Assembly: GCF_029168945.1 (NCBI RefSeq)
Contig: NC_083601.1
Location: forward strand, 21,294,160-21,358,159
From: Cannabis sativa
Lineage: Eukaryota; Streptophyta; Magnoliopsida; Rosales; Cannabaceae
Reading direction: 5' to 3'
DNA length: 64,000 nt
Shown: one piece after another, positions 3,933 through 36,045 of the stretch
How positions within the stretch are numbered: position 1 is the first letter of the stretch
Layout of the letters: each line of letters opens with the position of its first letter
Notes under the pieces: generated by a model
The model's database searches: none
Told to the model about the DNA's origin: nothing
The model's input: only the letters and a program-made list of their open reading frames with translations
Position numbers and translations under genes: made by a program

Positions 3933-3952
3933 ACTATGAAAAAATAAAAGCA

Positions 3953-7835: not shown

Positions 7836-8762
7836 CTAAGTAACATTCAATCCCTTTTTATTTTTCTTTAAGGTATTAGCACATTCGGATTGAGTGTGAC
7901 CAAAACCTTCACATTCTCTGCATTTAATACCTTTTTTATTGTTAGATGAAAAAGGTTTAGAGGGAATGTTACCAGAAATGTTACCTTTTGGGTTCTTTGA
8001 AAAGAACTTTTTATTTCCACCAGATTTCATGAATTTTTGGAAATTTTTTGCCAATAGAACCATTTCATCATCATTTTCATCATCAGAAACAATATTTTCA
8101 GAAGCATTAAAGGCAATACCTTTGCTTTTCTCATTCGAGAGATTTTGCTTACTCTTTTTCTTGATTTGTTGATTCAACTCAAAGGTTCTTAAAGATCCCA
8201 TGAGTTCCTCAACCTTCATCTTGCCAAAATCTTTTGCCTCTTCCATTGCAAGCAATTTTGTATCAAACCTGTCAGGAAGAACTCGAACAATTTTTCGAAC
8301 CAAGACAGATTCATCTAGTTTTTCTCCCAAGGCAAAAAACTCATTAGAAATATCAGATAATCTTTCATAGAAATCATTTAAAGTTTCAGTATCTGACATT
8401 CTCAATTCATCAAATCTAGTTTGTAGCATGGTAAATCGTGATCTCTTTACATCAGCAGTACCTTCAAATTGAATTTGAAGGATTTCCCATGCTTCTTTTG
8501 CAGATTCACAAGATGAGATTAATTTAATAAAACCTTCACCAACACCATTAAAAATAGCATGTAAAGCCTTATTATTATAACTGCGATGCTTTTCATCTTC
8601 GGTGGTCCAACCGAGTTCGCATTTTACCCGAGTATTACCTTTTTCATCATTTTCAGTAGGTTGAGACCAACCTGTAAGAATAGCTCTCCATGCTTTCTCA
8701 TCTTGCGATTTGATGAAAGCTCTCATCCTGACCTTCCAATAAGGATAATTCGACTCATTCAA
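7836..8762 (-). pseudogene. Copia gag, ended early by TAG
   Basis: 308 residues with the copia gag core (NYPYWKVRMRAFI, GWTTEDEKH, AKEAWEILQIQFEG, LNDFYERL) and a CCHC zinc knuckle near the C terminus (CRECEGFGHTQSEC). The TAG at 7836-7838 is in frame with the protease-integrase segment, and the reading continues sensibly past it (SDDSESSEDEKEK), so it is probably a point mutation in a continuous gag-pol frame. The first Met (8762) lies a little inside the usual domain start. Another ATG at 8806 is in a different frame, so a small indel near the start is possible. Confidence 0.87.
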
Positions 8763-8861
8763 TAGAGGAGGTCTAGAGATGGAACTTCCTTTGCAAACAA
8801 AGACATCTCACACAAAACAAGTTAAACTAATAACCTCAAGATCTCACTAAGAATTTAGTGA

Positions 8862-8875
8862 CTTGCTCGATACCA
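8862..8875 (-). promoter_or_regulatory. Primer binding site, initiator tRNA-Met type
   Basis: The minus strand reads TGGTATCGAGCAAG two bases after the CA end of the 5' LTR. TGGTATC is the usual start of the tRNA-iMet complement in plant copia elements. This fixes the LTR edge and the transcription direction. Confidence 0.85.
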
Positions 8876-9238
8876 ATTGAAATTCCGTATTTTAATATTC
8901 CTAGTTTGATTATTTAATTAAATGATTAATTAAATGCGGAATAATAAAACTGGTACTGAAAACAGTTTTCTGTAGTTACAGAATGCAACTCTGTAACTCC
9001 AGAGAAACCCGTAAAAACAAACGATGCATAAAAGTAAAAACACACAAGATTTTTGTACGTGGTTTCAACAATCCTTTCGCATTGTTACTAGTCCACGGGG
9101 CCACGCCCAGAGATAAGATTCATTAGATCGGTATCAAAAATACAAAGTAATTGACTTATGCATAAATAGACTCCCTCTTATTGTATGCCGCAAGCTTGAT
9201 GTATTCCACCTACTAACCGAATCTTGATAAAACTCCAA

Positions 9239-9417
9239 GATCTCGAACTCCCTTCGATCACCTTGAAGAGTGCTTGAATCCTCCCGATTCAAGGCTTAAA
9301 GGCTATCTCCCGAAAGCCTATACAACCATCTCCCGAAGGTTGTGTGCTTGTATCCTCCCGATGCAAGACTTCAAAAGCAATCTCCCGAAAGCTTGTAAAT
9401 ACCCTTCTCCCGAAGGT
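9239..9417. repeat. Array of seven small hairpins with a common CTCCCGA loop inside the LTR
   Basis: Each unit is a short inverted repeat around CTCCC(GA). Arms are GAT-CGAA/TTCGATC (9239-9259); CTTGAATC/GATTCAAG (9273-9293, 8 bp); AGGCT/AGCCT (9300-9319); CAACC/GGTTG (9323-9342); CTTG.ATC/GAT.CAAG (9347-9367); AAGC/GCTT (9375-9394); CCTTC/GAAGG (9403-9416). The loops are nearly identical and the arms are unrelated to one another but always complementary. Palindromic motifs have, as I recall, been reported in Sirevirus LTRs. Confidence 0.85.
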
Positions 9418-9666
9418 GCACTGATGTTCTTCTTCGTTGTAGACTTGAATACAGACTCAAGACAATACAAACAACAAATAAACAGAGTAAGAGTAGAACG
9501 ACTCTTCTCTACAAATCAAAGACTCTCTTTTCTAAAGATATGAATGGAATTCAAAGATACAAGAGAGGTACCAAGAGAGGTACTAAACAAAGACACTCTT
9601 TCCTTAAGATATGAAAGCAATTCTAAGTGTATGAAAGAGATACAAAACTTCCATGCCTATAAGATG

Positions 9667-9674
9667 TATTTATA
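9667..9674 (-). promoter_or_regulatory. TATA box of the Sirevirus-type 5' LTR
   Basis: TATAAATA on the minus strand, inside the LTR and upstream of gag in the correct orientation. Assigned by sequence only. Confidence 0.6.
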
Positions 9675-10703
9675 ATGAATATACATCTCATAGACGGCTT
9701 ACATTCGGTACGAACAAGACCTCAACCCACTAGAAACTTCCCTAAAATAATTCTTCAATCAGTCCAGAATTTCCGTTTCGTACCTACGAATCGTGCGTAA
9801 CTACAACTTTCCTTTTATAGAAAAGGAAAGTTTAGCTCCGGTTTTCTCTTCAAGAAACCTGATCTAAGAAAATGGGAAACTCAACACAAGATCAGATTAC
9901 ACAGCTGGTTAGATAAAAACGAAATGGGTAACCAAACTTACCATTTTTACCTTTTTTCCAAAAATAGGAAAGTTAGACAACTTTCCTTTCAAGTTTGAAT
10001 ACACCAAATAGGAAACCATATTAATGTATACCAGCCGAAAATATACAATAAATAATAAAATATTTTTGTCAATTAAATATGCCAAAAATGGAATTAACAA
10101 GATATTCCTAGGCCGATTGGGAAGGTTGCCAAGGTACCGCTTCGTCCCACACTTTACTAGAACTCCCCGGGGTTGCTAGAAAGTGTAGAGGGTACTCTAC
10201 CACAAACCTTTAAAGTCAATCTTTCTTAGACAGAATATTCTCAATTTTACCACTTTTATCATTACACATTTGTTTTCAACACTAATTTTTTTATTTTAAT
10301 TTTTTTTTAAGAAAGGAAATAAATAAAATAAATAAATAAATCTAAACTAAGAAATTAATTCTAAACTTTAAAAATAATTTACTTAAGAATAAAAAAAAAC
10401 TAACACAAACTAACGTTTATTTTTTTTTCATTTTTTTTAACTATAATAAATGTATTAAACAAAAAGAAATAAACTAATTTATAATGTGTACAATCTAAAC
10501 TTTAAAAAAAAAAAATAGAACAAGGTTTTTTTTTTTTTTAAGGAAACAAAAGGAAAAAAACTATATATTCTAAAAAAAACTATGAACAGGATAAAAGATT
10601 GGTTTTTTTTTAATATATATTTTTTTTAAAAAAAATAAATAAACAAAGTAACAAATCAATTATAAAAAAAACTACTTTACTAACCTCTTGGAGCGCAGAA
10701 ACC

Positions 10704-10721
10704 TCCCCGGCAACGGCGCCA
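10704..10721 (-). promoter_or_regulatory. Primer binding site matching tRNA-Asp, 18 of 18
   Basis: The minus strand reads TGGCGCCGTTGCCGGGGA, complementary to the acceptor end of plant tRNA-Asp. It lies 5 bases inside the LTR edge. Confidence 0.9.
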
Positions 10722-10726
10722 AAAAT

Positions 10727-12152
10727 TGATGTCGCCCAATTAGTTACACTGCGGTCGCGGTAGTAAACGGGCTATATGTCGTATCCACAGGGAGGTAAAT
10801 TACCACTAAAGATTAGTATAAATAGAAAATGATAGAAATGTGAATGACGTAAAAATAATAAAATGATGAGTGAAAGAGTGTGATCAGATAAAGAGTTTGG
10901 TAAGGTAGAAATATAGTTATGCAAATCCTATTCTAATACCGATATTAATTCAAAATACAGTTGTAATTCTACACCATTAATTACAACCGGAAGATATATA
11001 TGTTATGAGCACAAATTAAATAATCTTGAATAAATTGAATCTCACCTCTAACTTAACAGCTTATCATATTATATATCAAAAATCGACAAAATACCACTAT
11101 TGGCAGAATGCAGTAAACGACATAAAATATAATAAATATACCAAAATATTAATAGCCTAACTTACATAAGAAAAACATGACTGAACTTATATAAAAGATA
11201 CTATTAACTTTGGAAGAAAAATTAGAAGATGAAGAACAATTTAATTAAAATGGGATATGGAGATGAAACACAAAAGAATCAATATCAATAATAGAAATGA
11301 GAATTACAAAAGCTACACTCTAACCTCACCAATATTTCTAAAATAGTTCACTCATTTTTGTCACTAAAATAAGTAAAATAAAATAATAATAAGAGAGAAC
11401 AAGATGAAAAAGTGTATTTCTCCTCTAAAATCTGATGCCTTTTACACTCTTATGGACTCTTATTTATAGAGAAACTTTACTCCAAGATCCATATATTTCG
11501 TGTATAAAAAAAGGTGGAGAAAGTGGCATGAAAAGTTGATGAAATGGTGTTATAGGCATCAGGCGGAGTGGGGACTAGCTCAAACACGTGGAGCTCTTAA
11601 AAAGCTTCAACAGTTGTGTCAGGCAAGTGGAAAAATGCTGGAGGAAGTGGCTTCATGAGCTACACGCTGGAAAGATATATGTATATCAATTCAGTTGTTG
11701 TTATGATTTGGACTGAGGCATGGGCCTTTTGCATTGAGTGAAGCCCAAAATATATTAAAATCATAGCTAGTGAATGTTGGTTGGCCGTACATAACGAAAA
11801 CATGTTCCATTGACATGATAAATGATAAATGAAAGATGGTGGTGGGCTTGTTTATGACTTTTATGTCATTCCTTTTTGGTCTTCCATGTTGGGCTTTTTC
11901 TCTTTTGTGATTCACTTTGAGCCACTAGATTTTAACCTTATTTTCTTTTCTTTTTCTTTGCAAGAATACCACTTTTCAAGAATTCCAATATTTTATCATT
12001 TTGCTCAAATCTGAAAAATAACACAAAAATTAAAATAAATTAAATATTTCAAACTAAAATAAATTTATTATTAAAACCATGGAATACTTAATTTATATTA
12101 ATTGCATATGCATAAATAAATGCTTAAAATGTACAAATTTGAGCTTTAATCA
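10727..12152 (-). repeat. 5' LTR of the Tat-type element (outer edge approximate)
   Basis: The inner edge TGATGTCG is fixed by the primer site. The outer edge is placed at the CA at 12151-12152, just before the first unit of the 367-bp tandem repeat begins, which is an inference. There is no second LTR copy in the window for comparison. It contains no supported ORF. Confidence 0.7.
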
Positions 12153-12154
12153 AT

Positions 12155-13008
12155 GTGACATATATATATATTTAAAACTCAGCCAAGTACGGTTTTATAA
12201 TAAAATAATAATTTGAACACTTAAAGTAAATAACAAATCCTTCAAAACCCTAAAGAACCATTTTAAATAATTTTTATTAGTTTGTATTGGAATACTAATT
12301 TCCAACAATCAGTTGACATCTGTAGGATGTACTACCTTCTTTAAAAACATAAAAAATACAAATTTAGGGATATTATTATAACACAAACCTTTGAAGTCAA
12401 TATGAAAGAAAATAATGTTTTAATTTAAATATACATTTTGACTGGGTTAATATCAATAAAACTTAAATTACCTTTGTTTAATTTTTGTCTTTTGTTAATA
12501 AAAACTCCTACAGTACGTATGATGTGACATATATATATTTAAAACTCAGCCAAGTACGGTTTTATAATAAAATAATAATTTGAACACTTAAAGTAAATAA
12601 CAAATCTTTCAAAACCCTAAAGAACGATTTTAAATAATTGTTATTAGTTTGTATTGGAATACTAATTTCCAATAATCAGTTGACATCTGTAGGATGTACT
12701 ACCTTCTTTAAAAACATAAAAAATACAAATTTAGGGATATTATTATAACACGAACCTTTGAAGTCAATATGAAAGAAAATAATGTTTTAATTTAAATATA
12801 CATTTTGACTGGGTTAATATCAATAAAACTTAAATTACCTTTGTTTAATTTTTGTCTTTTGTTAATAAAAACTCCTACAGTACGTATGATGTGACATATA
12901 TATATATTTAAAACTCAGCCAAGTACGGTTTTATAATAGAATAATAATTTGAACACTTAAAGTAAATAACAAATCCTTCAAAACCCTAAGGAACGATTTT
13001 AAATAAAT
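12155..13008. repeat. Tandem repeat, unit about 367 bp, two full copies and a partial third
   Basis: Units start at 12155, 12524 and 12891 (each at GTGACATATAT) and are nearly identical. They include the landmark runs AACTCAGCCAAGTACGG and CAGTTGACATCTGTAGG. The third unit breaks off after about 118 bases into different sequence. The DNA is AT-rich and non-coding. Confidence 0.9.
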
Positions 13009-13574
13009 GAGGAGGATTTTTTTTTGTATTTTAAAATAATAAATATTTTAGTAATATTTTTCCATCAATCCATATACGGTCAAATCAGTAGGTTGTACTA
13101 TCTACTTGGCTATATATAGTACTTGTGGATGTGATTGTGTTGTGTAGTCTTTTCAAAAATTAAGAAATAATAATTAATACAAACTGGTACAGCTAAAGAT
13201 GGGGTGATATAACACCAATATAAATCTGATTTTGTCAATGCATTGAAAACCGTAAGTTCAACATACCCAACCAACTAATAAATTTTCCTTGAAAGACGTA
13301 ATTTGAACCAACCTAATAACCGGTTTTGTTATGGTTTGGTTGAGTTTGGTTAGAAAAATCAAATATTTAAATAAGTGAAATGTTGTCCCATCCCTAAAAT
13401 TGTCACATGTAGCAACAAATATGCCCATATTATGTCCAAATAAACATGTGTGGCCAAATGAATAAGAAATTAAATTATGATGTTTACTAATAATCAAAAC
13501 TCAATTTGTGAGTACTACAAACCAGCTCAGTTAATAATGGGTACGTGTAAGAAATTAGTACAATTTGTGAGAAA
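13009..13574. other. Non-coding AT-rich spacer between repeat blocks
   Basis: It contains a tail (about 13009-13115) that recurs at 13945-14055. From 13116 to 13574 there is unique AT-rich DNA with no supported gene. Confidence 0.6.
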
Positions 13575-14055
13575 AATAATTGTTATTAGTTTGTATTGGA
13601 ATACTAATTTCAAATAATCAGTTGACATCTGTAGGATGTACTACCTTCTTTAAAAAACATAAAAAATACAAATTTAGGGATATTATTATAACACAAACCT
13701 TTGTAGTAAATATGAAAGAAAATAATATTTTAATTTAAATATACATTTTGACTGGGTTAATATCAATAAAACTTAAATTACCTTTGTTTAATTTTTGTCT
13801 TTTGTTAATAAAAACTCCTACAGTACATATGATGTGACACATATATATATATATTTAAAACTCAACCAAGTACGGTTTTATAATAAAATAATAATTTGAA
13901 CACTTAAAGTAAATAACAAATCCTTCAAAACCCTAAAGAACGATTTTAAATAAATGAGGAGGACCTTTTTTGTATTTTAAAATAATAAATATTTTAGTAA
14001 TATTTTCCCATCAATCCATATACGGTCAAATCAGTAGGTTGTACTATCTACTTGA
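13575..14055. repeat. Displaced copy of 12640-13115
   Basis: It reproduces the second part of the 367-bp unit, then the first part and its AATGAGGAGGA tail, in the same order as 12640-13115. It was therefore duplicated as one block of about 475 bp after the tandem array formed. Confidence 0.85.
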
Positions 14056-14689
14056 ATAACTTAAAAAAAATAATTACGTAGAAATATGTTATTACTATAA
14101 AGATACCTTCATTATTTGTTAATTAATTATGATAAACTATTTTTTAAATGATACATGTATATTTTTTGTGTACCGAAGGGTGCAAAGTTAGTTAATATTT
14201 TTTTCATCTCATTTTATTTTTATCTGTTTTTGTCAAATTAAATAGATTATTTAACTTATTCTGCTAATTTTGTTCTTAATAAAAGTGCAGAATTTATTAA
14301 AAAGAAAATCAAGTAATATAGTAGTATTATGGAACCAATTAATTATTATTATTATTTTAGTACGTAAATTGATTAATTATCATTATTATTTGATACTGTA
14401 AATATACATTGTATTGAGATGAATTTGTACATATACTATAACATCGGGACTCTTATTACATGAGGAAGCAATTTGACCTAAGAATGTAAAAAATGCTGAC
14501 ATTTGCCTCCCGCGTATCATTTTGTTCGAGAGTCTGGCGCACCGTTGTGTCAAATATGATAACACTCATTCCAAAGTGGCCTTGTCGACTCGGGAGGTTG
14601 AGGTTCGGTAGGATGACATCTTTGGGTGGCCGTATTGGAAGTAGTTCCGTCCACCCTACTCCACCCATCCGAAACCTTCGTCAACCGTA
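14056..14689. other. Intergenic DNA leading into the satellite
   Basis: AT-rich and featureless to about 14440, then about 250 bases of balanced composition immediately before the satellite. No protein similarity was recognised. Confidence 0.5.
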
Positions 14690-15860
14690 GTGACTCCGGT
14701 ACCCCAAAGCTAACTTGACTACATAGTGTGTATTACTGGGCCCGTAAACACCGCAAGTCACAGTGTGAGTAGTACGAATGGTTGAGTGTCACTCTGTACA
14801 ACCCTAGGTTGAACTGGATTAGGTGAGTTCGTTGGAAGAGTAGTGAGTCCAGTACCCCACATCTAACTTGACTACATACTGTGTGTCACCAGGCCCGTAA
14901 ACACCGCAAGTCACAGTGTGAGTAGTACGAATGGTTGAGTGTCACTCTGTACAACCCTAGGTCGAACTGGATTCGGTGAGTTCGTTGGGAGAGTAGTGAG
15001 TCCGGTACCCCAAAGCTAACTTCACTACATACTGTGTGTCACCGGGCCCGTAAACACCGCAAGTCACAGTGTGAGTAGTACGAATGGTCGAGTGTCACTC
15101 CGTACCACCCTAGGTCGAACTGGATTCGGTGAGTTCGTTAGGAGAGTAGTGACTCTGGTACCCTAAAGATGAGTTGACTACATTCTCTGTGTCAACGGGC
15201 CCGTAAACACCGCAAGTCACAGCGTCAGTACTACGAATGGTTGAGTGTCACTCCGGTCAACCCTAGGTTGAACTGGATTCGGTGAGTTCCGCTCAGTAGA
15301 ACCCTAGCCGGAGAGGATGTTCAGTGAGTTCGTGAGGAGGATAGTGACTCCGGTACACCAATGGTAACCTGAGTACTTACTGTGTGTCACATTAACCAAA
15401 AAACACCGCCAGTAATAGTGTGAGTACTATGAACGGTTGACTGCCGCTCAGTAGAACCCTAGCCGGAGATGATGTTCAGTGAGTTCGTGAGGAGGATAGT
15501 GACTCCGGTAGACCAATGGTAACCTGAGTACTTACTGTGTGTCACATTAACCAAAAAACACCGCCAGTAATAATGTGAGTACTATGAACGGTTGACTGCC
15601 GCTCAGTAGAACCCTAGCCGGAGAGGATGTTCAGTGAGTTCGTGAGGAGGATAGTGACTCCGGTACACCAATGGTAACCTGAGTACTTACTGTGTGTCAC
15701 ATTAACCAAAAAACACCGCCAGTAATAGTGTGAGTACTATGAACGGTTGACTGCCGCTCAGTAGAACCCTAGCCGGAGAGGATGTTCAGTGAGTTCGTGA
15801 GGAGGATAGTGATTCCGGTACACCAATGGTAACCTGAGTACTTACTGTGTGTCAGAGATA
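14690..15860. repeat. Satellite-like array, 153/155-bp unit, about 8 copies in two subfamilies
   Basis: Units begin at GTGA(C/G)TCCGGTA-like sites at 14690, 14843, 14996, 15149, 15344, 15499, 15654 and 15809. The first four are 153 bp apart and share GGGCCCGTAAACACCGCAAG. The last four are 155 bp apart and share ATTAACCAAAAAACACCGCC. The junction unit (15149-15343) is 195 bp, a fusion of both types. Subfamily 1 can fold on itself (ACTAC..ACTGTG with CACAGT..GTAGT). GC content is higher than in the flanks. No ORF crosses the array. Confidence 0.92.
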
Positions 15861-24025: not shown

Positions 24026-24400
24026 GTTTTTTTTTTTTTTACAAACTTCCCATGAGCAACCCAACACGTTAATAGAGAGAATGGTCATCTACTACTCTCT
24101 CATAGCTATCTTCCTTATCCCTTCTTTCTTTTCTTCCTATTTCTTTTCAGAGTTGGTGGTTGTGTAAGTGTCTTTGGGGTTTGGTTGTGTCGTTGACTTC
24201 CCTTGGTATTGTGTGTTTGTGTCTAATTCTGCCCTGGGTCTTAGGTTCTCTGCCCTTTTCTTTGGTTTATTTTTCATTTGTTTCCTTCTTGTTGTCGTGG
24301 TTGTGGGGTATCCCTGGTTTGTGGGGTAGGGGTTGGTAAGGGTGTGAGGGAGTTGGTGAGGTTGGTTGTTTGGTGGCTTGTCTTTCATTGTTTGCTTTCA

Positions 24401-26347
24401 ATGGCTTTAGTTAATGCCACCAACATTTCTACTAATGGAAGGTGTTATTCCTTTGAGGAAGCTTCAGTCAAGATCAGTCCGTGTGCCTCTTCTCAGCAAG
24501 CTTTATCCACCTTTTGTCTTCTTGGGAAAGTTGTGGCCCCAATGGTAATTAATGAGGCCACTATCATTGACTTTGTGGAAAAGGTTTGGAAGTTTAATGT
24601 GACTGTTGTAGCTTTGAATGATGGTGCTAACAACCATAACTGTTTTGAGTTAGGTTTTTTAAGCACTGAAAATCGCTCATGGGCACTTGAACGTGGTCCT
24701 TGGTGTATACGTGGATACACTTTTATCTTGAAAGCTTGGGCACCTAAGAAGGAACATTTTGACATGTTTGAAAATGTTAGAATTTGGTTACACATTTTTA
24801 ATCTCCCGAGAGACTATTTCTCCATTGATAATGGTAAAATCTTGGGGACTAAAGCCGGTTCAGTGATTAAGGTCGATTTAGACAAAGGCAATCCGGCCCT
24901 ATGGAGCAAGTCTCTCAGAGTTTTGATTAACCTCAATGTTAACCTACCCTTGTTTTCAGGTTGTTATTTTGATCTGGAATCGGGCATCCAAAGGTGGGTT
25001 CAATTCAAGTATGAGAGATTGGGGATCTTTTGTTATAACTGTGGCAAGTTAGGTCATCAAAGAAGAGGTTGTCACCTTGCTTCTCCAGTTACGGTTTCAA
25101 GCCTGAAGGGGGTTCCTTTCCCTTTGTTTGGGCCATGGCTGTCTATGGATTCTTCTTACCTGGATGTCTTTTCGGGTGCAAAGTCCTTCAATCCAGCTTC
25201 GTCGTCGTCGGCACAGGTGGCTTCTGGTTCGGTTCGTGGGGGAAGTCGACCGTTGGCCTTGGTCTCTGGTGCGAAGGGAGCGGTTCGACGGACCCCTGTT
25301 TCTCGGTTAGCGAGTCGCACAGTGATGGCGGCGGGTCGGAGCTCGCTGGGCGAGGGGAAGGCTCGATACAAGATGTGGGTTCCCAAAGCTGGCTCTGCCT
25401 CGTGCATGCCAGAATTTGCCATTACGGGTAATATGGCTTCTGGTCGTACTCTGCGTGATGGAAAGTCGACTGAAATGTTGCCTTTTATTAATTCAAAATC
25501 AGTTGACCTAAGGAAGATGAGTGGGAAAGAGAAAGACTTTCTAAAGGGAGCTATTGGGCCGGCTTTCTCTTCTATTGGGACGGGTTCAAAAGTGGATCAT
25601 TTTAGAGATGGAGCTTTTTCTGGTGGGCCTATTAATAGGTGCAATGAGTCCATTTTAGCTCTTAATGGAGCCGAGCCCACTATGGAGAACCAAAAATCAC
25701 CTTTGCCTTTGCTAAAGGCTCAGAGGCCGTGTATTACCTATGGGCCGGGTGGGCTCCCTGATTTTAAAAATAATATTAATTTTGCTAGTTGTGAAACACC
25801 AAACAAGACCATTTCCATTGAGAGTTCTACTTGTGGCCAAGAAGTTAATTTTCATAATGATGAAACTCTTGCCTTATCCTATTTTTTTCAAGCTCAAGAA
25901 ACGCTTCTTCATGACCTCAAGAAGTTTGGAAACCTGGACTTATATGAGATTAAAACCATAGGTGGTGACATTGGGGTCCCTACTCCTTCGGAGGTTAATG
26001 AAAGAACCACTCCTTTCAAAAAGAGAAAGTTTGACGGGGCGTCGGCGTCTCTTTGTTCTCGGCCATGGAAGATCCCTCGCCACCATCCAGGGGTTGTCAG
26101 GGACTTTCCCTGGGACTCAGACGTCAAGGCTATTGCTACTAATGATGTGGAGGAGGAGCCAACGGAGGATGCCTCCTTATCCAACAGTGACTTCTTGGGA
26201 TCGGATGAGTGGTGCTCAAAAGGAAAAAATGTGATCTCAGCTAGGCCGATGGTCGGTACTTTTGTGGTTGATGATTCTGGATCATTTGGGTCTGCCCATT
26301 CTCATACCCCTGTGGAGGAGGCTCCTACTCCTCCACAGGAGCCATGA
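24401..26347 (+). CDS. LINE ORF1 protein: DUF4283 domain and CCHC knuckle
   Basis: The frame is open from 24278, but the Met at 24401 (MALVNATNIS) is a more likely start because the preceding 41 residues are leader-like. A DUF4283 domain covers roughly residues 30-190 (RSWALERGPWCIRGYTFIL, WLHIFNLPRDYFS). A CCHC zinc knuckle follows (CYNCGKLGHQRRGC), then a long, poorly conserved Ser/Gly-rich tail with a basic KKRKFDG patch. In L1-type elements this protein binds the element RNA. The stop codon overlaps the ORF2 start (ATGA at 26344-26347), suggesting coupled re-initiation. Confidence 0.9.
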   Translation: MALVNATNISTNGRCYSFEEASVKISPCASSQQALSTFCLLGKVVAPMVINEATIIDFVEKVWKFNVTVVALNDGANNHNCFELGFLSTENRSWALERGPWCIRGYTFILKAWAPKKEHFDMFENVRIWLHIFNLPRDYFSIDNGKILGTKAGSVIKVDLDKGNPALWSKSLRVLINLNVNLPLFSGCYFDLESGIQRWVQFKYERLGIFCYNCGKLGHQRRGCHLASPVTVSSLKGVPFPLFGPWLSMDSSYLDVFSGAKSFNPASSSSAQVASGSVRGGSRPLALVSGAKGAVRRTPVSRLASRTVMAAGRSSLGEGKARYKMWVPKAGSASCMPEFAITGNMASGRTLRDGKSTEMLPFINSKSVDLRKMSGKEKDFLKGAIGPAFSSIGTGSKVDHFRDGAFSGGPINRCNESILALNGAEPTMENQKSPLPLLKAQRPCITYGPGGLPDFKNNINFASCETPNKTISIESSTCGQEVNFHNDETLALSYFFQAQETLLHDLKKFGNLDLYEIKTIGGDIGVPTPSEVNERTTPFKKRKFDGASASLCSRPWKIPRHHPGVVRDFPWDSDVKAIATNDVEEEPTEDASLSNSDFLGSDEWCSKGKNVISARPMVGTFVVDDSGSFGSAHSHTPVEEAPTPPQEP

Positions 26348-29300
26348 GAGGAATCGCTTGGAACTGTAGAGGGTTAGGGCAGACCTCTACAGTTCGGGAG
26401 TTGAAGTCCCTGATTCGGTTGCGCTCCCCAGATTTCATCTTTCTGACCGAACTCAAAGTAGATGCTACTTCTTTGGTACGTACACTTCACTCGCTACATT
26501 TTTACTTTCATATTGCTGTTCCAGCTATTGGTAGTGCGGGAGGTATTATTTTGGCCTGGAAAATAGGGTTTGAGTTTGAATGTATTGCCTACTCCCAAAA
26601 TCATATTTCGGGTATTGTCTATTCGGATCCCCCAGCTCATCCATGGCTTCTGTCATGTGTTTATGGTCCCCCTTACTTCCATGCTAAGAAATCCTTTTGG
26701 GAGAGCTGTATGAAAATAGGGGACAGATTTGGTGGTCCTTGGCTCATATTGGGTGATACGAACTTTGTCCTGAGTGAATATGAACGAGTTGGATCTAAAG
26801 GAAGAGACCAATTCATTCCGGTTATTTCCAGCTTGGTGAATTCCAGGGGTCTGGTCAATATGGCTATCCAGGGAGACTGTCTGACCTGGGATAACCACCG
26901 CTCCGGATCCAACCATGTCAAATCGGCCCTGGATAAAGGGCTTGCGAATGGAGCGTGGATTAGTCTTTTCCCAAAGGCGGCTCTCTGCTCTTACCAGACC
27001 TCAAATTCAGATCACCGTCCTCTGTGCCTACTCTCTGGGGGTTTGGAGGACAAAATCCGAAGGAGTTTTAAGTTTGAGGAAGCCTGGACTAGGGACGAAA
27101 GGAGTCGGCTAGTGGTGGACTCCGCTTGGAAGTCGGTTAGTTACAACTGGGCACCGGCCCGGATCTTCAAGAAAATTGGGGCTACTAGAGTCGCTCTCTT
27201 ACACTGGAACAGGTCCCAATTTGGAAAAATTGACACTATGATTCGTGATCTGGAAAGGAGACTGGATCATATTCAAAAGCTCCCGGTGGGCTCTAGAGAT
27301 TGGGAGACTGAAAGAAATCTCAGGAGCTCTCTTAATGAGGCCCGTGTTCGGAAGGACCTAACTGGAAGCAAAGGGCCAGGGTCTCTTGGCTGAAAGAAGG
27401 TGATAAGTGTTCTAAGTTCTTCTTTCTTTCTGCCTCTATCAGAGGGAGAAGGAATGCCATTGAGTGCATTCTCAACAAAAACAATATGTGGATCAATAAG
27501 AGATTGGATATAGGCAATGAATTCATGGAATTTTTCCAAGGAATTTTCACGGGGTTGGAAACTAACATTGAGATGAATTGCACTGACTTAATCCACGATA
27601 GACTTTCTTTGGAAGACCATTCTGAGCTCATTAGACAACCCTCTCGCGAGGAAATTAAGGCCACTCTGTTTTCCATGAGTAATAACAAAGCCCCGGGACC
27701 AGATGGAATGTCTGTATTGTTCTTCAAACACTATTGGGGATCTGTTGAGAATGATTTCTATGAAGCGGTCTTGGATTTCTTCCATTCAGGACGTATGCAT
27801 AAAGGTGTTAATGCTACCAATATTGTCCTTATCCCTAAGGTTCAGAACCCGAAGAGACCAAGCCAGTATCGTCCAATCTCTCTCTGCAATGTGGTTTACA
27901 AGGTAATATCCAAGATTATTGCTAACAGAATCAAACCAGTGTTACCTAAACTCATCTGCCCTACTCAAGCAGCTTTTGTTCCTGGGAGGAATATCCAAGA
28001 TAATAATGTGATTGCCCAGGAAATTATTCACTCATTTAATAGGAAGAGAGGAAGAGAAGGTCTGTTTGCTATTAAGATTGACCTTATGAAAGCCTATGAT
28101 AAGATGAGTTGGAGATTTATTGATCATGTTATAGACTGTTTTGGGGTGCCATCGGAATTTCGGAATTGGGTTTCTCAGTGTATATCTACCACCACTCTCA
28201 ACATTTGCATTAATGGAGGCCAATTTGGAAAGATTATCCCCTCGCGTGGTCTTCGCCAAGGGGACCCCCTTTCTCCCTACCTCTTTATTTGGGCGGCGGA
28301 CATATTATCTAGGCTTCTGGAAGATGCCCAAGCTAAGAAATCTATTAGTGGCATCAGGCTGAGTAGGGGAGGCCCTTTGATATCTCATATTTTCTTCGCT
28401 GATGACCTCATTCTGGTTGGTAAAGCCAATCTTGAGGAGGCCAAAGGATACTGGGATTGTCTTGAGAAGTTTTGCTCCTGGTCTGGTCAGAAGGTGAATA
28501 AAATGAAGACTTCCATTTTCTTGAGTAAGAATACCCCCAATAACATGAAGCAAGGGATCAAGGCTATGCTGGGTATTGGATCTCCGGAAGGAAATGTCAG
28601 GTATTTAGGCCTCCCTCTTTTCAGATCGAGACAAAAGGATGCTGATTTTAACTTCATACTAGATAACCTGACTTCAAAATTACACGGTTGGAAAGCTAAG
28701 ACTCTTTCAAAAGCGGGAAGAGCGACGCTTATCAAATCCGTAGGCCTTTCTCTACCTATGTATGCAATGCAAACTACTAAGCTTTCCAACCGTCTAGCTA
28801 CGAAGATTGACAGTTTGGTCCGTGACTTCTGGTGGGGCTCTGAGAAGGGTAATCATGGGCTATACCTGAAAGCTTGGGACAAACTGTGCCTCCCCAAGTC
28901 TTTAGGGGGGCTGGGGTTCCGGAAATCAAAAGAAATGAACCAGGCTTTCCTGGCTAAATGGGGGTGGAACCTTCTGACAGGAAACCAATCCTTATGTTGT
29001 CGGATTTTGGAAGCCAAATATCTTAAGGGCCGACACTTTTTGGACTGTAAGCCGAAAGCTTCGGACTCGTGGTTTTGGAAGAATGTGACTAAAGCAAGAT
29101 CTATTATTCGCAAAGGGGCCTGTAAGCGAATAAAGGATGGCAAGGATACTAAGGTTTGGCATGACCCTTGGATAGGCCATTTGAAAGGCTTTTTACCCCG
29201 GCCAAGAGGCCCCTTACTGAAGGAGGATTTAAGAGTCGCTGATCTCCTGCTACCGGATGGGGGTTGGGATATCCAAAAGCTTAACAGCTTATTTGATAAT

Positions 29301-30384
29301 GAGATTATTTCGGCTATCTTGAAAGAAGGTAGTCCTTCAGGCATAGGAGAGAACAATTGGTGCTGGACCTTAGAATCTAATGGCTACTTTTCTAGCAAAT
29401 CAGTCTATAGGGCCCAAGCTGCAGATCGCGCGAGTTCTTGTGAGGTTGCCCCAGCCTTATGGAACAAACTGTGGAATAGTAAAATCCCTGAGCGGCTCAA
29501 GGTTCTTTGGTGGTGTATCCTCTCTAAGGCTCTCCCTGTCCGTGAGATCATAGCAAGAAAATTTCCTATTGAGGATGACAGATGCCCGTTGTGTGGAGCA
29601 ACAATCGAAACCATGGAGCATCTTTTCCTGTCTTGTGACTTTGCCTCCCGTTTATGGAGGTCAACCCCTTGGGGTATCTATTAGAATGTGGGATTGGGTC
29701 AAGTTTTTATGGGACCTAAAAAGCAAAGGCGTTAATGCTGACGAGGCTTTCCTGTATGCTTCAATAATAATTGATAAGATTTGGCAAACGCGGAATGATA
29801 AGGTACACAACAATAGCTCTGTTGATATTTTTAAATGCATTGACTCTATCCGTTTTTCCTTTGCAGATCACCAAGCTTACTTACTCCCTTGCCCCAAGTT
29901 GTGACCGTCCGATGTTTGGTGTCCTCCCCCTCAGGATTGGTTGAAGTTGAACTGTGACATCAGAGTAGGAATGGATAGCATGTGTGCAGCTGTGGTTGCA
30001 AGGGATCATGTTGGCAAGGTGATCGAGGTGACTACTTCTAAGTTGGAGTTTGCTGATGCTCTCTGCGGGGAAGCTGCGGCGTGCTGCTTGGCCTTAGAGG
30101 CGGCTAGGACTCTTGGTTTCCATTATATTATTGTTGAGAGTGATTCGAGGGTAGTGATCAACGCCCTCAATGGGAAAGATTCCCCTTGGGAGCTTGAGAA
30201 CTACGTCTCCTTTTGTAATAGAATTGCTCCCTCCTTTATCGGTTGTAGTTATGAACATGTGAGTAGACTTTGTAATTTTGCGGCCCATAATGTGGCCAAG
30301 TGGGCTTTTTCCCTTCAGAGGTTTGGTACTTTGCTGCCGACCTCCTTGCCCGACTATATTTTCTGTAATGACCGACAGGTCTAA
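26344..30384 (+). pseudogene. LINE ORF2: endonuclease, reverse transcriptase, zf-RVT and RNase H, with three lesions
   Basis: The APE-type endonuclease (26344 to about 27350) has WNCRGLG, LTELKVD, LILGDTNFV and SDHRPL. A frameshift at about 27355-27362 moves reading to the frame that ends at 29684. That part holds the RT with NNKAPGPDGM, SQYRPISLCNV, KIDLMKAYDK, GLRQGDPLSPYLF, the catalytic FADD and YLGLPL, then the zf-RVT (CPLCGATIETMEHLFLSC). A second frameshift lies near 29660-29685. TGA at 29902-29904 then interrupts the linker before an RNase H domain (ESDSRVVINALNG, CNFAAHNVAKWA) that ends at 30384. All catalytic motifs I looked for are present, so the lesions look like few and late events. 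Confidence 0.93.
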
Positions 30385-30464: not shown

Positions 30465-30532
30465 TTTTTTTTTTTTTTTGACAGAAAGTTTAAATATAAT
30501 ATAATTTCTTTATAAAATAAAAATATGATTTA

Positions 30533-30795
30533 TGTTATAAATATTAATAATTATGTGGATGTCCAAATCTTTTATTTATTACCATTAATTGTAATCAACA
30601 TTCATCTTTTTCTTAGTTTCCCTTTTCCTTAGTTTCTTAATATCTCACTCTTGTATTTGTATAAATAGGGGTTCACCCCATTGGAATAAACAACTCAGAA
30701 ATTCTCATTCACTTTCTCTTTCTCTCTTCATCTTCTTCTTCTTTCTTCTCATCTACTTTATATTATTTTATATTATTTTATATTATTTCATAACA
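30533..30795 (+). repeat. Left LTR, 263 bp
   Basis: TGTTATAAATATT to TTTCATAACA. A TATAAATA box at 30660-30667 lies mid-LTR, followed by a pyrimidine-rich CTTCATCTTCTTC stretch. It differs from the right copy at one position (GTGGATG against GTGAATG). Confidence 0.95.
30660..30667 (+). promoter_or_regulatory. TATA box of the non-autonomous LTR element
   Basis: TATAAATA followed by GGGG inside the left LTR; the same box is present in the right LTR. The LTRs being nearly identical suggests the promoter was recently functional. Confidence 0.65.
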
Positions 30796-30811
30796 CGTTA
30801 TCAGCACGAGT
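30796..30811 (+). promoter_or_regulatory. Probable primer binding site
   Basis: CGTTATCAGCACGAGT directly after the left LTR. It shares TATCAG with the tRNA-Met complement used by copia elements, but the match is partial. Confidence 0.5.
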
Positions 30812-31120
30812 CTCTGCCCAAGCTTCAAGCATGAATCTCTGCCTAAGACCCAATGTAAGTATTTTGTTAAAGTTCTTGAATTATTTCAAAGTCACGATAC
30901 ACTAAATATATATTTATATATATACTCATCTGACTGAAACAATTTCAAGAATCATTTGGTTTCCTTTTTCTTTTTTATCTATATATCTATATATTATATA
31001 TGTATGTATATGTTTTTATATATTTATTATTAATTTCATATATATATATTATGTTCTTACCATTCATAATATTTACAATATATGTGTGCCTATGATATGA
31101 TAGAGAAAATCTATATAAAT

Positions 31121-31422
31121 TATACATATATCCAAAAGATTATGTATTATCGATAAAATATTGCATATATCCTAAAGATTATGCATCATCGATAAAATAT
31201 TGCATATATCCTAAAGATTATGCATCATCGATAAAATATTGCATATATCCTGAAGATTATGCATCATCGATAAAATATTGCATATATCCTGAAGATTATG
31301 CATCATCGATAAAAAAAAATTGTATATATCCTGAAGATTATGCATCCTCGATAAAATATTGCATATATCTTGATGATTATGCGTCCTCAATAAAATCTTG
31401 CATATATTCTGAAGATTATGCA
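31121..31422. repeat. Tandem array of a 39-bp unit, each unit a hairpin with TCCTGAAGA loop
   Basis: Eight hairpins at about 39-bp spacing: TGCATA..TATGCA arms at 31162/31180, 31201/31219, 31240/31258, 31279/31297, 31321/31339 (TGTATA), 31360/31378 (TATGCG) and 31399/31417, preceded by TACATA..TATGTA at 31123/31141. The loop is TATCCTGAAGAT or a near variant. Units are joined by a CATCGATAAAATAT-like linker. The first hairpin has a different arm pair that is still complementary. Confidence 0.9.
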
Positions 31423-34400
31423 AACGTAATATTCATTATATAGTTGATGGATATATAATGAAAGAGATGAATACATATTTATATATATGTTCTTGTATTC
31501 TTTGAGGACAATGAAAAGTAATCTAATATCGATATAGATTTTGACAAACATTTCCTGAAGTAAATGTTTTATATTTGTCAAAAAAAAATGATTGTATTTA
31601 TGTAAATACAACTAAAGAATCATTAAAAATGATTATTATTGATGCAATTTTATAGTGGGTTTTGAATACCTAAAAAGAATGTTAAGAAAATTGCATTGAA
31701 ACATCAAAGTATAAGAATAACAATGAGCATGACTAATGTTATTTAAATACATGAGACATGTATTTATTGTTCATCATTCCCTGCAGAGAATGATACGAAT
31801 TGAATTCAATTACTTTTAAAGGTTACTCGTATTAGTCATGTTATTATACATTGTTATTACTTGCAATGTTGGAAATTATTGAATCTGACATATATTAAAG
31901 ATTAAATTTTGCATACATCTTGGAGACTATGTAAAAATTGCATTCATATATTCTTTGAAATATTGTTAAAGAAATTGCTGAGTAATTTCTTTTTATATAT
32001 GAACAAGTAATAAATTTTTAAGAAATTTATAATAATGTTCTACTTGTTCAACGTCATTCCCCGAAGTGAATGTAATGATTTTAAATAATCAATGACATTG
32101 TTTGCTACTCAAATATTTCCAGAAGAAATTGGAAACAACCAAAAGATGAACTACCACACACAATCAAAGTGCATAAAATCTATATATCATGTGTGGAATT
32201 GAATAATAGTAGTCGCGTACCTGTAGTACGGACACACTTATAATCAAGATAAAAGTATACTTGATTATTTAATAGAATGTGAATTGTACAAACTTATTGT
32301 ACATTTAGAATATTTAAATATCATTACCTAAAGAGAATGAATAGGCATGAAATTCTATTTCAAAGAATATAGATTTCACATATATTGGTAATGCCAGAAG
32401 CAAATTAATATATACATATTTTATTATTTCTTAAAATCAATAGTTTCAAACTATTGTTGGTACAGAATATGTATATATAGTTACTATTTAATTCAGTTTG
32501 CATATTCCCAAAAGTGGATATATAATTTACTAATATTCGTTAGTGATTTAATATAATCAAAGTGATAAAGAATCACAAAATGATTATTTGAAAAGCTTCC
32601 TGAAGAAGTCTTACATACAATTGCTACTTGGAGTAGTAAAATATATTTGTACGTACCTGATGTATAACTTTTATCTAGTTATGAAAGTAATAAGAAATAG
32701 CTTATTGTATGTACTGGTTGTACATTTAAATATATAATATACCAAGTCATGATAATTAGACTGATGAATAGTCTATTAATAAATTAGACGACTTGTTAAA
32801 AAGATACCAGGAAAAATGAATGATATATTATGGTTATATCTATTTAACCATTACAATAACATGATGAAGTTGTCATGTATCTTTAAATTATACACATCAT
32901 TGAATTGATGATAGTGATTCCTGAAGAAATATAAAGTTTGATAAACATAATAGTGACTCCTGAAGAGTGTATATGTTTTGGAGAATAATATAATTATATT
33001 ATTCGTGTATATAAAAATGAAACTTGTAATGATTATGTTGTAATGAATTTACATTACCTTTTGAAAGTTTCATTGAAATACAAATTATAGTGAACTTGAA
33101 GTTCATGAATTGAATTTTTTGACATGATCAATCATATGCAATAAATTGTCAAAGAATTTGACTAAATTTTGTTGAAGAACCAGAAGATTCTTCTCATTGT
33201 TAATTTATAAGGCTCAAAAGAAGAATGTGCATATATTTGCACATAGAAAATATTTAAATTATATTTCTTTAACAGTCTTAAGCCATTATTAGATTTTTAT
33301 TGCATAGTTTCTTATCGATGTGATAAGATTATATGATCATGCATTTACAAAATGTGTAATTTATGTATTTCTAATTATACACGTATGACTCATTCTTAGA
33401 AATGAATTAAGTTCATAAGTATTGAACTTGAAACTGAAGTTATTGAACCTGAAGTTCAATGTCATATAATATATATGAGTTTAAATAGATATTGATTCAT
33501 TGTGATATATTGAAATCCCTACAGGTGTATTAATATTATTAGATATCACAATTTCTTAAAATTCTCTCGATCAGGGGGAGAGAAGCAGTTGGGATCGATG
33601 ATAATTTTTGAAAAATGATCCTTGCACAAAGTTATAAGAACGATATAGTTCAAAATGATATATACCAACTGCAAATCAATATTACTCAAAGTTGAGATAG
33701 AATGAGTTGAAAACGCCTGAAGCGTAAATGAACAATATAGAAATTATTAGTAAATGTTCATTTGATTTGCCCTGAAGTTGTTAAATCTAGAGGTACTCAT
33801 GGAGATACCTTAATGTTATAAAGCATTAAAATGATAACCGTGATGAAAACGGTACTCGAAAAGACTCCCAAGAGAAGTTAGACATAACACATTTGATCAT
33901 AATTGAATCCCTGAAGTGATTCTATATAGGTACCTATAAATGATAAACATATTTGAAAAATATGTAATTTAAAGAGATCTCTATAAGTTATGTCAATATG
34001 GGAGGAAATTATCATTTATTAAAAATTTTGTCGACAATAAATATTGAATGTTTGCATATGCAATAAACTAACATGAGATAGCAAGGATCATGGTATTAGA
34101 TTTGTCGAGAATCATCGACATACATTTTGATTTTTGGCCAAAATATTATGACGCAATCCAGGCAAATTTACTCACATAAAGTGAAGTAAGACCTGTAGGG
34201 TGTGCAAATAAATATTTCTAATGAGAAATTTGCATATATGTATTTGTACATAATGAATTGTTGTACAAAGTTTGCATAGACATGAGATTGATTGAAGTAA
34301 GGCTTAAATATTGAGAAAATATAATCATGATTTGATTATAGCCTGGAATATATTTTATGAGGATTTATAAGCGTCACATAAATGTTGCAACAAAAGGTTA

Positions 34401-35424
34401 TTTATTTGGAGCTCCTAATATAGTGAGAATGTGAAATAAGCCTTATCTAAAAATTCTAGAAGAATTTAATACATGTCTTAAGTGATATAAATTCAAAGTC
34501 GCGCGCACTATATGACAAAGATCTTTGTATGAAATAAAGACATGTAAGTAAATTATTATTTGAAAAATACCTATGGTTGTCTATGCAATATAAATACGTA
34601 AATTATACGTTGTGATAGACTCTTTAAGAGTTTTTGATTAATTGAAGAACAAACTTTTATTTCTTTTGTATTTCGAGAAATATTAATGTATAAAGTTTGT
34701 TCATTAGTATTGAAGTCCTGAAGTACTTCATATGTATTAAGAATTATAGATATATGATCATTTGATATGGAAATTAAGATCATAAAACAAGATGGAATAA
34801 ATATATGGTCTTGGAGTACCATCATTGTCACAAATGAAAATTTGTAGTACCATTAATGTGTTATGTTCATATCTACTTAAAATTTTAAATTTTCGTATGA
34901 ACAAAGTTGTGTACACACATGAATGATACAATTAGTTGGATAAAGACTAATGTTCCACGAACCCCTCATCTATAATTTAGAAGTCCATGCATACTCTGGA
35001 AGAGTTATAAAAAAATATATGATCAAAGATTGTATATGGTGATATTTTAAAAGTGATAACAATAATCTTATGAGATCTATTATCACCAAAAGAATTATGG
35101 ATCATATGTGCATGAGGGGGAGACATATTCATGTTGCACTCTTTTTCCCTTAGCTTAGGTTTTGTCCCAATGGGTTTTCCTGGCAAGGTTTTTAACGAGG
35201 CAACTTGCAAATAATTATGAATATGAAATATATATTGTACTCTTTTCCCTAGCTCAGATTTTATCCCACTGGGTTTTTCTGGCAAGGTTTTTAACGAGGC
35301 AACTATAAATCATGTTAACATACTTGCATTTTATGAAGCAAGTAGAGAATGTGTGTGAGTGAGAACATTGACATAGCATATTCGGGAAACATATGGATTG
35401 CACTCAATAAAGAAGTATCTACCC
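31423..35424. other. Non-coding interior with dispersed CCTGAAG-type hairpins
   Basis: No ORF resembles a protein. Clear hairpins with a 7-8-base centre are AAACATTT/AAATGTTT around CCTGAAGT (31546-31569), ATCATTC/GAATGAT around CCTGCAGA (31773-31794), CATTC/GAATG around CCCGAAGT (32055-32072), GAAGAA/TTCTTC around CCAGAAGA (33174-33193), ATTGAA/TTCAAT around CCTGAAG (33442-33460), GAATC/GATTC around CCTGAAGT (33905-33922), TGAAGT/ACTTCA around CCTGAAGT (34711-34730) and ATGGT/ACCAT around CTTGGAGT (34805-34822). Other loops occur too, for example AAATGAACA/TGTTCATTT at 33726-33763. A TTTTTAACGAGGCAACT phrase typical of copia 3' regions appears near 35190 and 35290. Confidence 0.8.
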
Positions 35425-35700
35425 AAGCAATTCTCTATGGATAATACTGCTTGCATCGTTCAACTAAAAGGAGGTACATTGAAGGAGATAGAGTTAGAAC
35501 ACATTTCACGAAATTCTTCTTTATACGCTTCAAGAAAATGCATATTGGTGTTCAGCATATTCAATCAAGTGTCAATCTTACAAACTTATTCACAAAGTTA
35601 TTACCAACATCAACATTTGAGAAGACGGCAGACAAGATCGAAATTCGTCGATTAGAAGATCTCCACAAATGCCTAAATAAGGGGGAGGGAGTTAGTTTAC
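35425..35700 (+). pseudogene. Copia RNase H C-terminal remnant
   Basis: Two overlapping frames hold pieces of the copia RNase H end: MDNTACIVQLKGG in one, then HIGVQHIQSSVNLTNLFTKL and PTSTFEKTADKIEIRRLEDL in the other. This is the only recognisable coding relic of the element and shows that it derives from a Ty1/copia ancestor. Frame changes between the pieces make it non-functional. Confidence 0.8.
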
Positions 35701-35768
35701 ACTATACTCTTTTTCCTTTGACCAAGTTTTCAGCAAGATTTTTAATAAGGCAGCTATTATGGACATCC

Positions 35769-35777
35769 AAGGGGGAG
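35769..35777 (+). promoter_or_regulatory. Polypurine tract of the non-autonomous LTR element
   Basis: AAGGGGGAG directly before the TG of the right LTR. A second similar tract (CAGGGGGAGAG) lies inside the element near 33574. Confidence 0.85.
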
Positions 35778-36040
35778 TGTTATAAATATTAATAATTATG
35801 TGAATGTCCAAATCTTTTATTTATTACCATTAATTGTAATCAACATTCATCTTTTTCTTAGTTTCCCTTTTCCTTAGTTTCTTAATATCTCACTCTTGTA
35901 TTTGTATAAATAGGGGTTCACCCCATTGGAATAAACAACTCAGAAATTCTCATTCACTTTCTCTTTCTCTCTTCATCTTCTTCTTCTTTCTTCTCATCTA
36001 CTTTATATTATTTTATATTATTTTATATTATTTCATAACA
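35778..36040 (+). repeat. Right LTR, 263 bp
   Basis: Same length as the left copy with one substitution. It is followed by ATTTA, the second copy of the target duplication. Confidence 0.95.
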
Positions 36041-36045
36041 ATTTA

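Follow-up and report, generated by a model that had tools for sequence, protein, structure and literature searches.

Large retrotransposon derivatives (LARDs; for example, Sukkula) and terminal-repeat retrotransposons in miniature (TRIMs; for example, Cassandra) are non-autonomous long terminal repeat (LTR) elements whose non-coding interior may be long or short. LARD is a structural label and not a clade. Well-conserved RNA structures have been attributed to both LARDs and TRIMs (PMC7215508). Here we describe an LTR element at positions 30533-36040 of a 64,000-nucleotide stretch of Cannabis sativa DNA (NCBI RefSeq assembly GCF_029168945.1, contig NC_083601.1, positions 21,294,160 to 21,358,159 of the forward strand; hereafter the window, numbered from its first letter). 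Like a LARD, it is a multi-copy LTR element with a long non-coding interior and no protein. Unlike the described LARDs and TRIMs, its interior is traced to the gag-pol region of a coding partner, holds many hairpins of one loop class that also occur in the partner's coding RNA, and is under strand-specific selection.

Pairs of a defective element and a coding partner, such as Dasheng and RIRE2, have been described (PMC3701649), and so have retrozymes, which are non-autonomous plant retroelements with a functional RNA structure (PMC4918200). A search of Rfam over our element at E <= 1 gave one match, to mir-2851 (E = 0.7), which we regard as chance; it gave no hammerhead ribozyme or other known RNA family, and this sets the element apart from retrozymes. 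The hammerhead ribozyme of retrozymes sits in their LTRs. We know of no retained set of RNA hairpins in pairs of the Dasheng/RIRE2 type. LARD-like elements with conserved RNA structure (PMC7215508) and partner pairs are both already known. Neither a loop-defined hairpin set common to a partner's coding RNA nor a decayed gag-pol under strand-specific structural selection was found in one open-licence library, searched mostly at the level of listings, and no paper met there describes hairpins of this kind in LTR elements.

In Ty1, Gag recognizes cis sequences in the genomic RNA, and further scattered sites have been called likely (PMC4974528). The Ty1 signals lie near the 5' end and up to 5 kb of the interior is dispensable, whereas the hairpins of our element extend over 3.7 kb. 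The dispersed packaging signals of RNA viruses and of hepatitis B virus (HBV) consist of numerous stem-loops along the genome RNA that share a short loop motif on varied stems; the loop is (x)xYA in MS2 and RGAG in HBV, and contact with the coat or core protein has been shown there (PMC6281560, PMC7612645). Our element likewise has a shared loop motif on varied stems in its sense RNA, and the class is present in the RNA that encodes the partner's capsid (coding copy A; subfamily B is weaker). It differs in its carrier, an LTR retrotransposon family, and contact with a protein is here a proposal.

Hairpins of one loop class on the sense strand

The initial annotation of this DNA had pointed to short inverted repeats whose centres recur while their arms differ and yet remain complementary. 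The centres and arms that it named are present as described (for example, at 31546-31569, 31773-31794, 33174-33193, 33442-33460, 34711-34730 and 34805-34822). About twenty hairpins of the zone have similar loops and varied, complementary arms on the sense strand. We defined the loop motif as C[CU]NRNAG (in DNA, C[CT].[AG].AG), the outer C and G of which can form a closing pair. The zone and individual hairpins within it are as follows.

31441..35120, plus strand: hairpin zone; non-coding, decayed gag-pol, with sense-RNA structure under selection
31546..31569, plus strand: hairpin AAACATTT-CCTGAAGT-AAATGTTT
31773..31794, plus strand: hairpin ATCATTC-CCTGCAGA-GAATGAT
32055..32072, plus strand: hairpin CATTC-CCCGAAGT-GAATG, aligned with a hairpin of partner gag that has identical arms
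32116..32135, plus strand: hairpin holding CCAGAAG, with alternative stems (TTTCCA/TGGAAA, or ATTT/AAAT nearer the motif)
32216..32230, plus strand: hairpin CGTAC-CTGTA-GTACG
33091..33105, plus strand: hairpin with centre CTTGAAG
33174..33193, plus strand: hairpin GAAGAA-CCAGAAGA-TTCTTC, aligned with a partner pol hairpin
33442..33460, plus strand: hairpin ATTGAA-CCTGAAG-TTCAAT
33713..33725, plus strand: hairpin ACG-CCTGAAG-CGT; aligned partner hairpin GTC-CCAGAAG-GAC, three double changes
33905..33922, plus strand: hairpin GAATC-CCTGAAGT-GATTC; aligned partner hairpin in another register
34451..34467, plus strand: hairpin AAATT-CTAGAAG-AATTT; partner GATC-CCTGAAG-GATT, one double and one single change
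34711..34730, plus strand: hairpin TGAAGT-CCTGAAGT-ACTTCA
34805..34822, plus strand: hairpin ATGGT-CTTGGAGT-ACCAT

Between 31441 and 35120 there are 54, 23 and 11 hairpins with arms of at least 6, 7 and 8 nt; dinucleotide shuffling (100 replicates) gave averages of 21.9, 7.0 and 2.1. The heptamer CCTGAAG occurs nine times on the plus strand of the zone and not once on its minus strand. Stems at motif sites were counted as flanking Watson-Crick pairs, in a run that may include up to two G.U pairs. By this count, 20, 14 and 11 of the 29 plus-strand motif sites of the zone have at least 3, 4 and 5 pairs, respectively. The corresponding numbers are 1, 0 and 0 for the five minus-strand sites of the zone, and 28, 8 and 1 for the 285 sites on both strands outside the element (at least 5 pairs: 0 of 149 on the plus strand and 1 of 136 on the minus strand). 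Exchanging 3' flanks between the 32 C[CT]...AG sites 5000 times never produced a mean stem as long as the observed one (3.09 versus 1.22). An unguided ranking of the 256 loop classes of the form XY...ZW, limited to classes with at least four sites and at least two paired sites, placed CC...AG first (9 of 22, p = 1.6e-7). The middle four loop positions have pairing probabilities of 0.19-0.34 in the sense ensemble, compared with a zone average of 0.60. We conclude that the specific feature is the loop and its orientation, not hairpin number alone. The shuffled controls that the initial annotation had suggested thus came out in its favour, with paired motif sites tied to the plus strand of the zone.

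Two other ideas were considered and dropped. A miniature inverted-repeat transposable element or foldback origin was rejected, as the arms differ from one another and there is no common unit. Mimicry of the tRNA-Phe anticodon loop by CUGAAG was abandoned since the loop varies (CCAGAAG, CTTGGAG).

Some zone hairpins vary among copies. Those at 32920 and 32959 are 39 nt apart, like the units of the neighbouring tandem array (see below), and the intervening stretch is absent in 7 of 21 rows. At 32327 and 32508, stems that are mismatched or wobble-paired in the window copy are fully paired in some siblings (L115, L116 and L119). The fully paired forms are CATTC/GAATG and, in L115, ATATTC/GAATAT.

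Selection on the structure of the sense RNA

For the selection counts, 37 of 40 aligned rows were kept, the window included (L053, L073 and L083 were left out). Variants were called shared if found in at least 3 of the 37 copies and rare if found in fewer. Shared variants have passed replication, and rare ones are richer in recent changes that have yet to be exposed to it; the comparison of the two therefore indicates selection.

The proportion of columns with shared variants fell steadily from 9.0% at pairing probabilities below 0.2 to 3.8% above 0.95, and that of columns with rare variants went from 13.4% to 16.4% over the same range (pairing of at least 0.8 versus below 0.5: Fisher p = 5e-7). 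The sense fold remained significant given the antisense fold (p = 7e-6), while the antisense fold added nothing given the sense fold (p = 0.67). Circular shifts matched the effect of the sense profile in 0 of 3580 cases and that of the antisense profile in 57 of 3580; with the fold of another copy, the count was 1 of 3580. Single changes in predicted pairs (probability >0.5) kept pairing in 31 cases and broke it in 29 among shared variants; for rare variants the numbers were 95 and 178 (p = 0.012; at pair probabilities of >0.8 and >0.95, p = 0.047 and 0.078). Where stems were interrupted, G.T was favoured over A.C in all six settings: 17 to 5 in the clearest one (shuffles, 8.1 to 6.9) and 9 to 3, 7 to 2, 3 to 1, 28 to 15 and 9 to 2 in the other five. 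Since shared variants avoid positions that pair in the sense RNA, with no further contribution from the antisense fold, we conclude that the structure of the sense RNA is under selection in a family without genes. Selection on structure had been one of two causes offered by the initial annotation, which had also suggested a look at sibling copies; the arms of the zone do not mutate freely among them.

Anatomy and lineage of the element

The LTRs are 99.6% alike and ATTTA stands on both sides; hence, the element is complete and its insertion recent. It has the two LTRs, target-site duplication, primer binding site (PBS) and polypurine tract of an LTR retrotransposon, and the coordinates of the initial annotation (30796-35777) are exactly its interior. 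The features outside the hairpin list are as follows.

30528..30532, no strand: target-site duplication ATTTA, left copy, from sequence; matches 36041-36045
30533..30795, plus strand: 5' LTR, TGTT...AACA, 263 bp; 99.6% identical to 35778-36040
30796..30810, plus strand: PBS CGTTATCAGCACGAG, complementary to the anticodon arm of tRNA-Ile(AAU)
30811..31024, plus strand: leader common to the element and its coding partner (blastn against the partner)
31125..31422, plus strand: 39-nt tandem array, 7.6 copies
35141..35205, plus strand: 3' untranslated region (UTR) repeat, copy 1; copy 2 at 35240-35304
35308..35663, plus strand: copia RNase H relic, frameshifted (tblastn)
35769..35777, plus strand: polypurine tract, adjoining the 3' LTR on its 5' side, from sequence
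35778..36040, plus strand: 3' LTR; 99.6% identical to the 5' LTR
36041..36045, no strand: target-site duplication ATTTA, right copy, from sequence

No open reading frame (ORF) of at least 150 amino acids occurs in the element, and no Pfam match was obtained in the six frames of the zone, the G+C content of which is about 26%. This agrees with the young, protein-free element with near-identical LTRs that had been annotated initially, with the addition that a frameshifted RNase H tail remains. The centre CCTGAAG is exact in three units of the 39-nt array and 1-2 bases off in the remaining units.

The PBS lies directly 3' of the 5' LTR and places a C opposite the first anticodon base (34) of tRNA-Ile(AAU), a base that is edited to inosine. 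The tRNA-Ile arm, TCGTGCTAATAACG, has 41 exact matches in the same genome and 0 in a reversed control, and ARAGORN called tRNA-Ile(AAT) at 3 of 4 retrieved arm-bearing places. An edited half-tRNA-Ile PBS is the mark of the Bianca lineage of Ty1/copia (Neumann et al., PMC6317226). From its sequence, the element thus appears to be a non-autonomous Bianca derivative, which has the PBS and lacks a coding gag and pol. The likeness to Bianca as given in REXdb (PMC6317226) takes in the edited half-tRNA-Ile PBS, the copia RNase H tail, the 5-bp target-site duplication and a coding partner in the same genome. Unlike Bianca, the element has no coding capacity, and its gag-pol is replaced by its own decayed, hairpin-rich remains; such hairpins are not described for Bianca in the excerpt of PMC6317226. 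Rosaceae families with TGTT/AACA were considered as relatives and rejected, as their ends differ and they belong to the Ale lineage (PMC5659011). Among viral contigs, 38 stretches hold the PBS 15-mer and none holds the 18-base LTR-PBS junction; further viral scans were empty.

The protein evidence for lineage is the RNase H relic. In two frames (43% and 40%; E = 1e-12 and 7e-12, tblastn), it resembles a copia element from an Azolla-associated contig, and the PBS of that element is the same. The record of this contig (L040), which carries a copia element with a half-tRNA-Ile PBS, is labelled as an uncultured Trichormus metagenome-assembled genome, that is, cyanobacterial. The copia element on it is probably DNA of the Azolla host.

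A coding partner with the same hairpin class

With the RNase H of the Azolla contig as query in Cannabis, 150 matches were scored of 6670 candidates, many of them with long open frames. One coding copy, copy A, was read in separate stretches. Its PBS is identical to that of our element, its LTR is about 87% alike over 199 bases, and its leader and 3' UTR match. By blastn, positions 624-1069 of partner stretch L089 and 1-492 of the element are 73% identical over LTR and leader, and the 3' UTR repeats are 82% and 77% identical to the partner 3' UTR.

Motif sites in copy A have at least 4 Watson-Crick pairs in 8 of 27 cases on the sense strand, where flanking DNA accounts for 4 of the 27 sites, and in 0 of 16 on the antisense strand. 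Swapping flanks among the 23 sites within the element equalled the observed pairing in 0 of 5000 trials, and CC...AG ranked first among the loop classes (5 of 13, p = 3.6e-6). A coding subfamily B (73% alike) has 17 motif sites on the sense strand, 4 of them paired and mostly at other places, and 5 on the antisense strand, none paired. These sequences are not all independent: L093 resembles copy A at 97-99%, and some hairpins are common to L092 and L094. Two other elements of the window served as controls and lacked the class, a copia element (0 of 25 and 0 of 22) and a LINE-type (long interspersed nuclear element) element (1 of 22 and 0 of 31). The gag hairpin CATTC-CCTGAAGT-GAATG is identical in 20 of 20 pieces (20 of 40 listed places), which carries little weight because the copies are 98-100% alike. 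Plain hairpins are in excess in the L091 stretch of the partner (13 versus 7.0) and not in partner gag (2 versus 2.4). That the hairpins might serve packaging or priming by another element had been proposed in the initial annotation; the existence of a coding partner with the same PBS and related LTRs supports use by another element, and the role of the hairpins themselves lies outside this support.

Alignments of the zone with the partner gave high-scoring segment pairs of about 60-66% identity, largely in order, with some weaker ones off the line. The best collinear chain scored 252, against 94 ± 27 in 30 shuffles, and block alignment gave z values of 3.5 for gag and 13.1 for the second pol stretch (L091). 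The gag-pol link is visible at the DNA level only, with the Cannabis partner; pieces of the Azolla contig revealed no coding remains in the zone (best E = 0.024). On these alignments, the hairpin zone is the partner's gag-pol, decayed beyond coding yet collinear. The alignment gives a place to 20 partner motif sites, and seven of these coincide with zone motif sites. This is an illustration only, and it tells against us to the extent that the motif may itself have attracted the alignment and the seven coincidences have no independent null. A stem of at least 4 pairs, counting the loop C-G, is retained in the zone at six of the seven. The four aligned hairpins whose stems are in the same register differ by 4 double and 2 single changes, all of which pair. 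A zone of decayed gag-pol, and the same hairpin class in the partner's coding RNA, go beyond what had been annotated before.

What the hairpins may do

The explanation that we favour, in an evenly balanced judgement, is that a non-autonomous Bianca element arose from a coding ancestor and that its sense RNA kept dispersed C[CU]NRNAG hairpins as recognition sites for a partner protein. A coding element would have lost its gag-pol coding and left a non-autonomous derivative, the sense RNA of which would have kept, and probably elaborated, the dispersed hairpins found also in the coding relative. The loops would be the element recognized by a trans-acting partner protein, most likely Gag. Many weak sites might jointly recruit the RNA into the partner's particles, by analogy with the dispersed packaging signals of some RNA viruses. 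The parasite, no longer constrained by coding, could carry more hairpins, which may help to explain its commonness. A wider proposal, which we offer tentatively and with some doubt, is that LTR retrotransposons carry a dispersed, degenerate hairpin code with the loop C[CU]NRNAG that is read by Gag, hidden in the coding RNA of autonomous elements, and kept and densified in a derivative whose gag-pol has decayed and that competes for particles by RNA shape alone.

Gag's choice of its own RNA in LTR retrotransposons is poorly defined. A family that lost its proteins yet multiplied is a natural experiment in which coding and RNA-level constraint are separated, and hairpins of a class known also from the coding relative are among what survived. 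A vague question becomes a concrete motif: a short stem that bears the loop C[CU]NRNAG. The hairpins could help to explain why non-autonomous elements outnumber their helpers, and they offer a route to reading RNA structure in other LARD-like families.

Several observations weigh against recognition by a partner protein or against steps leading to it. The chief objection to a packaging role comes from Ty1, which tolerates internal deletions of up to 5 kb and the minimal element of which keeps 380 nt plus 357 nt (PMC4974528); internal hairpins are thus not needed in Ty1. Stems are 0-2 bp at 12 of the 32 C[CT]...AG sites, many zone hairpins are without the motif, and plain hairpins are in excess elsewhere in the window too (for example, 20 versus 4.7 with arms of at least 7 at 7401-11100). 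Among siblings, loop bases are no more conserved than other unpaired columns, and G shows no reduced variability within arms (informative in 17 of 116 cases, versus 46 of 447 elsewhere). New G.U versus A.C pairs did not differ significantly between shared and rare variants at any of three cut-offs (p = 0.053, 0.12 and 0.34, all >0.05). Of 12 windows along the zone, 10 have the lower minimum free energy z-score on the antisense strand; we rejected these scores as a strand test, as they are uninformative and lean antisense. Subfamily B alone is not significant in the flank swap (368 of 5000), and the copia relative on the Azolla contig has no paired motif sites (0 of 14 sense, 0 of 12 antisense). 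The first pol stretch (L090) does not rise above shuffles alone (z = 1.5), and the seventh aligned hairpin, at 34192, has lost its stem in the zone.

Could the sense RNA be selected for folding as such, for stability, export or protection from decay or small-RNA pathways, with a loop that is merely favourable and no protein site? The depletion of shared variants tracks pairing across the whole zone, beyond the motif hairpins; hairpins without the motif are in excess as well, coding stretch L091 has a general hairpin excess, and the loop bases lack special conservation among siblings. Against this, a single loop class is prominent in both the zone and copy A, is tied to one strand, occurs in partner gag where the general excess is lacking, and is missing from the copia and LINE controls. 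We consider this explanation unlikely, if worth keeping in sight. It is improbable, too, that the hairpins serve another step of the cycle or a host factor, through RNA dimerization, nuclear export, localization or pausing of reverse transcription. LTR elements do use cis RNA structures for dimerization and priming (PMC5454406, PMC4974528), and many sites at flexible positions would suit a host RNA-binding protein just as well. The main Ty1 signals are, however, near the 5' end (PMC4974528), and kissing loops in general are disfavoured by a consensus loop that lacks self-complementarity.

A process at the level of DNA or of reverse transcription, such as hairpin-templated correction of imperfect palindromes, could hold arms perfect without selection while the sequence drifts, and would fit a general hairpin excess. 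Yet a DNA-level process should neither follow the sense fold nor prefer G.T over A.C, and here variant sharing is accounted for by the sense fold, with no contribution from the antisense fold, and stem interruptions favour G.T. It also leaves a fixed loop class in one orientation without explanation. We regard it as very unlikely, and the template-switch process that the initial annotation had named beside selection is disfavoured on the same grounds. That the hairpins are chance products of AT-rich sequence, or a tandem repeat inherited passively, is hardly credible: the low G+C content of the zone and the adjoining 39-nt array with the same type of centre invite the idea, and the shuffle, flank-swap and strand controls refute it. 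The arms are unlike one another, so no unit was copied whole, and hairpins stand at aligned places in coding RNA.

Copies of the family

Probing the genome with the leader gave 1119 candidate places. Among the 40 that were scored, full-length matches besides the window are 95-98% alike. The zone is present in 36 of 39 fetched siblings (<700 gap columns), which are 96.6-98.5% identical to the window copy; L083 carries part of it, and L053 and L073 are without it. L053 was also left out of a separate sibling comparison. Median LTR divergence in the siblings is 0.4% (35 of 39 pairs measurable). The LTR-PBS junction has 639 exact matches in the genome, and among the first 10 listed junction/PBS sites the zone runs throughout the 801 bases read in 8, extends for 66 bases in 1 and is absent in 1. 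From the 639 junctions and the 8 of 10 sites with zone, the family may fairly be put at several hundred copies, an extrapolation from a small sample. Four PBS-bearing copies, L053, L073, L120 and L122, have all or most of the zone missing.

Surroundings of the element

On the minus strand at 819-8807, the window has copia frames (gag, pol and a further ORF), which we take to be SIRE-like and which have no paired motif sites; these belong to the copia control used above. The LINE-type element lies at 24245-30384, with frames recognized by eye as endonuclease, reverse transcriptase and RNase H-like. At 12153-15854 there are long tandem arrays, whose periods are 367, 153 and 155 bp. The window also holds a receptor-like kinase frame, which matches a pollen receptor-like kinase of Cannabis at 99% identity over 92%.

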